Part shown: piece after piece, positions 5,301-34,343 of the stretch
Position numbering within the stretch: the stretch's first letter is position 1
How the letters are laid out: each line of letters starts with the position of its first letter
Made by a program: the position numbers and the translations under genes
DNA from: Kiritimatiellia bacterium
Lineage (GTDB): Bacteria > Verrucomicrobiota > Kiritimatiellia > PWTM01
DNA length: 64,000 bases
Reading direction: 5' to 3'
NCBI GenBank assembly: GCA_026417735.1
Contig: JAOACR010000009.1
Span: 1 to 64,000 of the forward strand
The notes under the pieces: model-generated
Told to the model about the DNA's origin: nothing
The model's input: only the letters and a program-made list of their open reading frames with translations
Databases searched by the model: none

Positions 5301-6251
5301 ATGCGTCGTTCGTGGTGGACGGCGCTCGCCGCCGGCGGGGTGGCCGCCCTGCTGTTGGGTTGTGCTCCTCGTCACCGCGCCCCTACCTCATTTGCGGTCC
5401 CGCCGGTTGCGGCCGACGAACTCATGTTGATGAGCTGGAATCTCCGGATGTACTCGATCGAGGACCGCGACGGAGACGGCCAGCGCACCGAGCCGAAACC
5501 GCCGACCGAGCGGGCTGCCATTAGCCGGATCATTGCGCGTTGCCGCCCTCATGTGCTCGCCGTGCAGGAAATCGGAATCTCCGCCGTTCTCGACGAATTT
5601 CGCCGTGCGCTCCAGGCCGAAGGGCTTGTCTATCCGCACCTCGAGCATCTGATCCGTCCTGACGCCACCATCGGACTTGCTGTACTGAGCCGGCTGCCGA
5701 TCGTCGCGCGACGCTCCCGCCTCGATGATGTGTATCGCATTGGAACGACCAATCTGCCCGTGCTGCGCGGATTCATTGACGTCGAGCTACAAACGGAGCG
5801 TGGGTATCGTTTTCGCCTCTTCGTCGTCCACCTCAAATCAAAGGTCTATCACCCTCTTGGACAAACGGAAATGCGGCGAAACGAGGCCCGGATCATCGCC
5901 CAACACGTCCATAGCGCACTCCAAAGCGAGCCCGGATTGAACCTTTTGCTGCTCGGCGATCTGAACGACTCGCCCGACTCCGCGCCAGTGCAGCGGCTGT
6001 TGGGCGAGGATACTCGCCTGCTACACGATCTACGTCCCTCAGATGATCTTGGCGACGTCTGGACCCACTTCAGCAGCACAGTCGATATTTACAGCCGCAT
6101 CGACTACGCGCTGGTCAGTGCCGGCATGCTCGGTGAAGTGGTCAGAGAAAAATGCCGCGTCGTCCGCGACCCCGACCTTCTCATCGCCTCCGATCACCGT
6201 CCGCTGCTGGTGGTGGTGCGCGCCACAGACGCTGCCCTGACAGCCCGATGA
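5301..6251 (+). CDS. endonuclease/exonuclease/phosphatase-family lipoprotein
   Basis: A 316-residue EEP-superfamily metal-dependent phosphodiesterase with a lipoprotein signal: a Trp/Arg start, a hydrophobic core and a lipobox LLLGC at about residue 21. Catalytic motifs are MSWNLRMYS (Asn), LAVQEIG (metal Glu), LLLGDLNDSPDSAPV (Asp/Asn) and IASDHRPLLVVV (Asp-His pair). A His in LFVVHLKSK matches the family. The product should sit on the periplasmic face, acting on phosphodiesters such as extracellular DNA or phospholipid headgroups; the substrate cannot be read from sequence. A GGGAG site precedes the ATG. The stop overlaps the next start by 4 bases. Confidence 0.85.
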   Translation: MRRSWWTALAAGGVAALLLGCAPRHRAPTSFAVPPVAADELMLMSWNLRMYSIEDRDGDGQRTEPKPPTERAAISRIIARCRPHVLAVQEIGISAVLDEFRRALQAEGLVYPHLEHLIRPDATIGLAVLSRLPIVARRSRLDDVYRIGTTNLPVLRGFIDVELQTERGYRFRLFVVHLKSKVYHPLGQTEMRRNEARIIAQHVHSALQSEPGLNLLLLGDLNDSPDSAPVQRLLGEDTRLLHDLRPSDDLGDVWTHFSSTVDIYSRIDYALVSAGMLGEVVREKCRVVRDPDLLIASDHRPLLVVVRATDAALTAR

Positions 6252-6949
6252 CGGCGGCTCCCCCTCGGATCCGAGCGGTGGTGTTCGACTTTGACGGCAC
6301 ACTGTTTTTCACCGCCGACGCGATTGTGCATTCGTTCCGTGCCGCGCTGCAGGCCACCGGTCGGCGCGACGTTCCCTCATTGGTCATCACGAGGCTGATC
6401 GGCCGGCCGCTAACAGAAATGTTCGAAACGGTCGTAGAGTCCGCAACACCTGCGGAAATTCAAACGCTGGTGGCCGAGTACCGTCGTGTCTTTGCCCGTG
6501 TCGCGCCGCGGCTTTCGCGCCCGGCACCGGGTTTTGACGCAGCGATGGCCGCGCTGCATGCCGCAGGCATCCGCATGGCGATTGCAACACATCGGATGGC
6601 CGAGGGGGCGCGGATGATCCTCGAGCGGTTCGATGCCGCCCATTGGTTTGGCGCGCTGGTCGCACTCGAAGACATGCGGCGTCCCAAGCCCGCGCCCGAC
6701 GCGATCTGGCAGGCCCTGGAAAAGCTGGGCGCGGAGCCCGCGGAAGCGGCCGCCGTAGGGGATACGCCCGACGATGTCCGGGCGGGAGTCGCCGCCGGCT
6801 TGTGGTCCGTCGCGATCGAGAACTCAGTTCATTCCCGCGAGATGCTTGAAGCGGCCGGTGCGCACGCGGTGGTTGGTTCTCTGGCCGACCTCCCGCCCCT
6901 CCTGCTGCGCAGCCCGCCAACCGGTGAAGCCCCCCCGAACACCACCTGA
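6248..6949 (+). CDS. HAD phosphatase, phosphoglycolate phosphatase-like
   Basis: A 233-residue HAD hydrolase with VVFDFDGTLFFTAD (nucleophile and acid/base Asp both present), IATHRMAEGARMIL (motif II), RRPKPAPDAIWQALEKLG (motif III Lys) and AAVGDTPDDVRAGVAAG (motif IV). The alpha-helical cap between motifs I and II is the C1 type of Gph and beta-phosphoglucomutase relatives. The start is set by the ATGA overlap with the upstream EEP gene, so translation is probably coupled. The last residues, rich in Pro and Leu, are variable. Phosphoglycolate is the commonest substrate in the family but is not proven here. Confidence 0.85.
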   Translation: MTAAPPRIRAVVFDFDGTLFFTADAIVHSFRAALQATGRRDVPSLVITRLIGRPLTEMFETVVESATPAEIQTLVAEYRRVFARVAPRLSRPAPGFDAAMAALHAAGIRMAIATHRMAEGARMILERFDAAHWFGALVALEDMRRPKPAPDAIWQALEKLGAEPAEAAAVGDTPDDVRAGVAAGLWSVAIENSVHSREMLEAAGAHAVVGSLADLPPLLLRSPPTGEAPPNTT

Positions 6950-32987: not shown

Positions 32988-34343
32988 ATGAAACCCGAGC
33001 GCGCGAGCGGTGAGGTGCCGCCGGTGCTGGTCGTTGATGATGAACCGGCGGTCGCGGAGGTCACGCGCCGCCACATCGCGGCCCGATTCCCGGAGCTACA
33101 GGTGCTGGCCTGCAGCGACGCGGAAGTCGCGATGGAGCTCGCCGCCGCGAGCGAGTTCTCGGTGGTGCTGTGCGACCTGGCGATGCCGATCCACAACGGC
33201 ATTGAGGTTCTCGCCGAGATTCGGCGGCACCACCCTCACACGGTGGGCATGCTGGTCAGCGGCCAGACGACGAAGGAAGCCGTGATCGAGGCAGTGAACT
33301 ATGCGGGCGTGTGGAAAGTGGTAGAAAAACCCTGGCGGGAAGAGGCGCTGATCGGCTGGGTTCGGGAAGCTGTCGAGTTGTACCGCTCACGTGTCGCGAT
33401 CGAGGCCGGCAACACGAAACCGCGCCGCTCCGCGCCCTCCCCTCTCCGCGTGCGCCCGCCGGCACCGGTGGTACGTTTGCGCATGTCCGCGCGTCCCGGC
33501 CCTCCCCCGTCGCCGCCGGCGGGAGTGTCGCGTCCCACCTTCGCGCCGCCGATCCCGCCACCGCGGGTCGGTCCGCGATACGCGGAGCTCCAGCTGCTCG
33601 ACGCCGGCGGTCTGGGGGCGGTCTATCGCGCGCGCGACACCGCGGAGGACCGTGATGTTGTGCTGAAGGTGCTCGCCGCACGCTTTGCCGCCGACGAGAC
33701 GGCCGTCGCGCGGCTCGAGGCCGACGTGCACGCTGCAGCGCAGCTGTCCCATCGCAGCGTGGTCCGACCCCATCGGCTGGATCGCTCCCCCTCGGTGGTG
33801 GCGATCGCGATGGACTACATCCGCGGCACCACGGTGCGGTCGGTGCTGGCCCGCTGTGGGTGTTTGGAGCGCGCCGCGGTGGTGGAAATCGTGGACGCCT
33901 GCGCCAGCGCCCTTGATGAGGCGGCCGCGCACGGTTTGATGCACCTGCAGCTTCGCGCAGACCAGCTCATGCTCGACCGCGAACGGCGGCTGAAAATTCT
34001 CGGGTTCGGGCAGCGGGAGATCGCGCGGATGGCGGTCCGGGGTGGAGTGCCGCGGCACTGGTTCCACATCGCACCGGAGCTGGCTGCCGGCGTGCCGGAC
34101 GATCCGCGCATGGACGTCTATTCTCTGGCGATTCTCGCGCACGAACTGCTCTGTGGCCGCGCCCCGGATCATGCCGGCGAACAGCGTCCGAACGGTCCCG
34201 CCGAATACCGGCCCACCGCCTCAGAAGATCTGCCAGCCGCGGTGCGGGAAGCGCTGGATCGGGCACTGTCGCCGACGCCCGGCGAGCGGTTCGACCGGGC
34301 GACCACATTTGCGAAGGCACTCCGTTCCGCGCTGGAAGTGTGA
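32988..34343 (+). CDS. response regulator receiver fused to a Ser/Thr pseudokinase
   Basis: A 451-residue two-domain protein. The receiver (residues 11-135) has the acidic pair Asp17-Asp18, phospho-acceptor Asp63 in VVLCDLAMPIHNG, the switch Ser in MLVSGQTT, and Lys in VVEKPW, so it looks competent. A Pro/Arg-rich linker of about 60 residues follows. The kinase-like domain (about 199-450) keeps the Gly loop (AGGLGAVYRAR), Lys227 and Glu244, and an APE-like HIAPELAAG. The HRD motif, however, is H319-L-Q321, its Asn position is Gln326, and DFG is G339-F-G. Loss of both catalytic Asp residues makes phosphotransfer unlikely. It is monocistronic. Probably an allosteric or scaffold output domain. 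Confidence 0.88.
   Translation: MKPERASGEVPPVLVVDDEPAVAEVTRRHIAARFPELQVLACSDAEVAMELAAASEFSVVLCDLAMPIHNGIEVLAEIRRHHPHTVGMLVSGQTTKEAVIEAVNYAGVWKVVEKPWREEALIGWVREAVELYRSRVAIEAGNTKPRRSAPSPLRVRPPAPVVRLRMSARPGPPPSPPAGVSRPTFAPPIPPPRVGPRYAELQLLDAGGLGAVYRARDTAEDRDVVLKVLAARFAADETAVARLEADVHAAAQLSHRSVVRPHRLDRSPSVVAIAMDYIRGTTVRSVLARCGCLERAAVVEIVDACASALDEAAAHGLMHLQLRADQLMLDRERRLKILGFGQREIARMAVRGGVPRHWFHIAPELAAGVPDDPRMDVYSLAILAHELLCGRAPDHAGEQRPNGPAEYRPTASEDLPAAVREALDRALSPTPGERFDRATTFAKALRSALEV

Follow-up and report, generated by a model that had tools for sequence, protein, structure and literature searches.

The window, a 64,000-nucleotide stretch of contig JAOACR010000009.1 from a Kiritimatiellia bacterium, carries a gene (32988..34343, on the forward strand, as are all features located below) for a 451-residue protein in which a receiver domain is joined to a Ser/Thr kinase fold whose catalytic residues have been replaced; Pfam reports both domains (REC and Pkinase) in this open reading frame, and orthologues are present in two further members of the genus, G001 and G002. 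On balance, we lean toward reading the protein as an orphan response regulator with a maintained pseudokinase output, that is, a non-catalytic module that binds a partner under the control of phosphorylation and that descends from an active receiver-Ser/Thr kinase (REC-STK). The chances appear evenly balanced for the narrower claim that this is a genus-specific module, a purely non-catalytic kinase fold under the control of a two-component receiver, and that it arose through loss of catalysis in place within an ancestral REC-STK.

Receiver, linker and kinase-like domain

The receiver occupies residues 13-123 (33024..33356; PF00072, E = 3.8e-19). In the family alignment, it contains the acidic pair Asp17/Asp18, the phospho-acceptor position Asp63, Ser91 and Lys114, which bears out the claim of the earlier note that Asp17, Asp18, Asp63 and the switch residues are retained, and which gives the protein the full set of response regulator residues (acidic pair, phospho-acceptor Asp, Thr/Ser and Lys). 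The predicted phospho-acceptor, Asp63 (33174..33176), lies in a column that is Asp in 23/23 REC-kinases. Judged by its residues, the receiver is competent for phosphorylation, which would take place at Asp63. Scored against the response regulators of NCBIfam, the receiver half comes closest to the receiver of the NosR-type c-di-GMP phosphodiesterases; their output is a phosphodiesterase, whereas that of the window protein is a pseudokinase.

The two domains are separated by a Pro/Ala-rich, mostly disordered linker (residues 131-195; 33378..33572), within which the AlphaFold2 pLDDT falls below 50 at residues 153-188. Its end overlaps a juxta-kinase motif, PTFAPPIPPPRVGPRY (residues 183-198; 33534..33581), near-invariant in 4/4 family REC-kinases. 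The consensus PTFAPP(I/V)xxPxVxxRY before the kinase is nearly constant in these four family members while the rest of the linker diverges, and it was not seen in the remaining REC-kinases of the class, outside the family.

The pseudokinase domain spans residues 197-449 (33576..34334), with a PF00069 match at residues 199-399 (E = 2.4e-19); Pfam found no domain other than REC and kinase in the 451-residue protein. AlphaFold2, run on a 30-sequence alignment, yielded a model with a mean pLDDT of 86.9, in which the receiver and the kinase half are confidently folded and residues 153-188 are disordered or flexible. Among solved structures, Foldseek matches this model best to PknA, with a TM-score of 0.78 normalized by target length, and the closest solved folds are PknA, PknB and PknI. 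The PF00069 match, the model and its resemblance to PknA thus place the domain in the protein kinase fold. An active-type orthologue yields a similar predicted model.

To locate the catalytic motifs, we aligned the domain to M. tuberculosis PknA and, separately, to its own family; the two alignments agree. His319-Leu320-Gln321 (33942..33950) replaces HRD, with the Asp of this motif present in 30/30 active-type relatives and replaced by Q/Q/H in the three pseudokinases of the genus (in the order window, G001, G002); Gln326 (33963..33965) replaces the catalytic-loop Asn (N in 30/30 actives, Q/C/R in the pseudokinases); and Gly339-Phe340-Gly341 (34002..34010) replaces DFG (D in 30/30 actives, G/G/G in the pseudokinases). 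This placement is identical to that given in the earlier note, and the two alignments rule out a catalytic Asp located elsewhere. With Gln321, Gln326 and Gly339 in place of the HRD Asp, the Asn and the DFG Asp, the protein lacks the defining residues of an active Hanks-type Ser/Thr kinase, and these residues predict that it has no kinase activity. The catalytic-loop Lys is also changed, to Arg323 in the window protein, a K-to-R replacement common to all three pseudokinases. They further share a three-residue insertion in the activation segment that includes Trp358, and His360; the resulting W358-F-H360 (34059..34067), before APE, is pseudokinase-specific, with Trp358 inserted and Tyr at the His360 position in 30/30 actives.

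Other parts of the fold have been retained. The 30 active-type relatives define 55 kinase columns with at least 85% conservation, and all three pseudokinases match them at 29 of these; the residues kept include the Gly-rich loop glycines Gly207, Gly208 and Gly210 (33600..33623; 3/3 pseudokinases), Lys227 of beta3 (33666..33668; 30/30 actives and 3/3 pseudokinases), His319, the APE Glu364, the alphaF Asp376 and Arg434. The Gly loop and Lys227 are therefore present as previously proposed. The assignment of Glu244 as the kept kinase glutamate was mistaken: Glu244 faces an arginine in the PknA alignment, and the residue in the alphaC Glu column is Asp246 (33723..33725), so that in the beta3 Lys-alphaC Glu pair the Lys is kept and the Glu position is Asp. 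This column is Glu in 30/30 active-type relatives, Asp in the window protein and its 71% identical relative, and Glu in the 50% identical relative. Because the alphaC position is Asp246, ATP binding appears less certain than first claimed; of the original picture of a receiver driving an ATP-binding but inactive kinase, the competent receiver (by its residues) and the non-catalytic fold stand, whereas ATP binding as then stated is not supported, the Gly loop and Lys being kept but the Asn and the metal-binding Asp lost.

Ancestry of the loss and selection on the gene

Near relatives, the class, the family and a phylum sample of 388 genomes (class members included) were searched for related proteins. 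The class contains 23 REC-kinases that match the whole-length model, one of which (G028) is without the first part of the receiver; no full-length REC-kinase was found outside the class in the 388-genome phylum sample, and plasmid records gave partial, single-domain matches only. Within the genus, the protein occurs in the window's genome (G000), in G001 (67-71% identical) and in G002 (about 50%), and CALLFZ010000010.1 (locus L032) gives the same match as G001. No second full-length REC-kinase was found in G000, G001 or G002, so no active paralogue of that type is known to do the job in these genomes. The gene was undetected in G004, G005, G007 and G008 (83-91% complete) and in G003 (68% complete), and its non-detection in these other family members suggests that it is dispensable in close relatives, which counts against the main reading.

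All three genus proteins lack the HRD Asp, the Asn and the DFG Asp, so that the substitutions first noticed in the window are shared by its orthologues. In contrast, the nearest outgroup protein, which comes from G006 in the same family and is 43-46% identical and homologous over its full length, keeps HLD...N and DFG. Most other REC-kinases of the class are intact at the catalytic residues, and two are partly degenerate (a G047 copy and G076). In a tree built on the kinase domain only, with the catalytic columns left out, the three pseudokinases form one clade (100/99) with G006 as its sister (100/99), among REC-kinases that are mostly intact. The window protein thus shares ancestry with an apparently active form, and catalysis seems to have been lost a single time, ahead of the diversification of the genus; one loss at that stage is the simplest account because the DFG D-to-G and catalytic-loop K-to-R changes are common to all three.

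Elsewhere in the class, G047 C406 (L100:3965-6829) carries two tandem REC-kinase genes, one with intact HKD and DFG and a second (5306-6820) with HGD but GFG and an altered alphaC, possibly an active/degenerate pair. G076 C36 (L109:9237-10721) keeps HGD, Asn and DFG and has an altered Gly loop and alphaC, possibly a step toward inactivity. The converse layout, an intact kinase after a degenerate receiver-like region without the acidic pair, occurs at L058, L062, L066 and L067 (families f34 and f37); Pfam does not report the receiver at L066 and L067.

The selective regime was examined by pairwise NG86 comparison. For the G000-G001 pair, dN is 0.207 and dS 0.944 in the kinase half (ratio 0.22), and dN is 0.137 and dS 0.824 in the receiver (ratio 0.17); comparisons with G002 are less informative, with dS near saturation. 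Active-type pairs give kinase dN/dS values of about 0.27 (G039-G050) and 0.09 (G336-G337). When unconstrained change was simulated at 0.94 substitutions per site, mean identity fell to 22% (maximum 28%), with 4.65 stops over two copies, whereas the real G000-G001 kinase pair retains 71% identity and has zero stops. Among the trio, the N-lobe is conserved somewhat more than the C-lobe. These codon-level comparisons argue that purifying selection acts on both halves and that the dead kinase domain is maintained rather than decaying. As a three-member clade under purifying selection, the protein fits the description of a bacterial pseudokinase, a kinase fold that is without one or more catalytic motifs and is conserved as such. 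The earlier note had held that orthologues with intact HRD and DFG would reveal simple decay; G006 does supply such an orthologue, but decay is not what the dead copies show.

Genomic context, proposed mechanism and alternatives

The gene had been described as standing alone. It lies 85 bp downstream of a co-directional ABC-ATPase/permease/TPR-like gene string, an arrangement kept in G001 but not in G002, so that the description holds only in part. Both here and in G001, it faces genes for a TPR/membrane protein and for a GT2 glycosyltransferase, and the neighbors common to the two loci are ABC, TPR-like, TPR/membrane protein, GT2, NrdR and RecD2 genes; G002 has only the GT2 and TPR/membrane genes nearby, arranged differently, and none of the window's neighbor genes was found near the G006 locus. 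An operon partner was ruled out by comparison of the window, G001, G002 and G006, as none of the neighbors accompanies this gene across the family. A search of its surroundings turned up no promoter-like site.

For the input, co-occurrence across a few, incomplete genomes picks out four histidine kinases of G000 (in L125, L127, L131 and L136) that are matched in G006 and in none of G004, G005, G007 and G008, and a fifth (L131b) that scores much better in G006 within the same small set; the four may be regarded as weak cognate candidates. In a few distant class members (L103, L107, L109 and L110), a histidine kinase or receiver gene lies near the REC-kinase gene, which fits a two-component input for the REC-kinase family. 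At L106:2597-3745, translation and inspection by eye place MglA-like GTPase and roadblock-like genes a few kb from the REC-kinase gene.

We propose that the ancestral protein would have been a receiver-controlled Ser/Thr kinase and that, in the ancestor of the genus, the kinase would have lost catalysis while its fold was kept as a protein-binding module. A histidine kinase would phosphorylate Asp63; the receiver may then change how it dimerizes or how it touches the tethered pseudokinase, and this change would expose or hide a surface for binding, perhaps the face at which substrates or other kinases once docked. The partner could be a protein that used to be a substrate, or one of the cell's other Ser/Thr kinases. 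We infer a binding output of this kind, in which the protein probably signals by engaging a partner and not by phosphorylating one.

A rival and rather unlikely reading holds that the protein is an allosteric partner, switching another, active Ser/Thr kinase through a PknB-like back-to-back N-lobe dimer under control of receiver phosphorylation. The genome encodes at least four other PknB-like kinases, the N-lobe of the trio is somewhat better conserved than the C-lobe, and the G047 tandem of an intact and a partly degenerate (GFG) REC-kinase suits such a pair; furthermore, the nearest solved folds are PknA, PknB and PknI, and the solved MviN pseudokinase dimerizes back to back (PMC12599244). 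On the other hand, conserved linkage to any kinase gene was not found, nor was an active REC-kinase paralogue in the genomes that carry the pseudokinase.

We consider it improbable that the domain is a nucleotide-sensing switch, in which the Gly loop and Lys227 would still hold a nucleotide, ATP or another, without catalysis, and the output would depend jointly on occupancy and receiver state. In its favor, Gly207, Gly208, Gly210 and Lys227 are unchanged in 3/3; however, both metal ligands (the Asn and the DFG Asp) are lost in 3/3, the alphaC Glu is shortened to Asp in two, and according to a review, ATP binding is almost always missing from pseudokinases in which all three motifs are altered (PMC12599244), although the Lys motif is intact here.

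Continued catalysis by unusual chemistry, with an acid that has shifted position or with a non-kinase reaction of the SidJ or SelO type, is more doubtful still. SelO is a kinase-like fold with altered motifs that catalyzes a different reaction. The SidJ report likewise indicates that kinase-like folds with altered motifs can run other reactions (PMC6858067), but in our alignment the trio shares no acidic residue close to HRD or DFG that would obviously replace the lost ligands. Finally, a decaying gene or assembly artefact, which the intact-motif orthologue in the same family and the patchy gene distribution might suggest, can be set aside as having next to no likelihood, since the same losses recur in open, diverged copies from three separate, independent assemblies, and the dN/dS of 0.22 and the neutral simulation are strongly at odds with it.

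Relation to known systems and significance

Response regulators built as REC-STK fusions are already known, and those found class-wide with intact HRD and DFG share the domain order of the window protein and full-length homology with it; they keep the catalytic Asp, the Asn and DFG, whereas the window's genus does not. Among bacterial pseudokinases, for which a 2025 review recognizes seven families (PMC12599244), the MviN pseudokinase domain of M. tuberculosis (ActPs3) is likewise a PknB-like fold without catalysis, and it is reported to act by recruiting a partner, FhaA (PMC12599244). However, MviN is a membrane protein that has no receiver, has lost the beta3 Lys and is controlled by PknB phosphorylation, whereas the window protein has a receiver and Lys227. 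DLHK, CP1, GLW, DYD and ActPs1-2 are also Hanks-type folds with altered motifs, but their motif patterns and partner domains differ; the DLHK member from P. aeruginosa shares the GFG motif (PMC12599244).

By the definitions in that review (PMC12599244), the beta3 Lys is replaced in ActPs2, ActPs3 and GLW (by Arg, VALT and a bulky residue, respectively), and Lys227 is present here; DLHK retains the HRD Asp, which is Gln321 here; and CP1 carries a fused COG3899 ATPase domain, where only REC and kinase were found. Set against the published descriptions, the testable features (beta3 Lys, HRD Asp and fused domains) thus exclude ActPs2, ActPs3, GLW, DLHK and CP1 at the level of sequence. The review names no receiver-linked family, and "receiver" and "response regulator" are absent from its text (PMC12599244). 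A search of titles and abstract openings, with subscription papers largely outside its reach, returned no description of a receiver-gated pseudokinase. Bacterial pseudokinases are already known, and a receiver-gated one is without an account in the literature searched.

Bacterial pseudokinases are a poorly understood group, and the REC-kinases described here provide an evolutionary series, with an active-type sister, three dead descendants and, in another part of the class, a tandem copy that is half degenerate. The series keeps its input domain and loses its output chemistry, so that the contributions of binding and of catalysis to kinase signaling could be tested apart. If our reading is true, the active-type G006 protein and the dead G000, G001 and G002 proteins would form a natural before-and-after pair for the conversion of a kinase output into a binding output.
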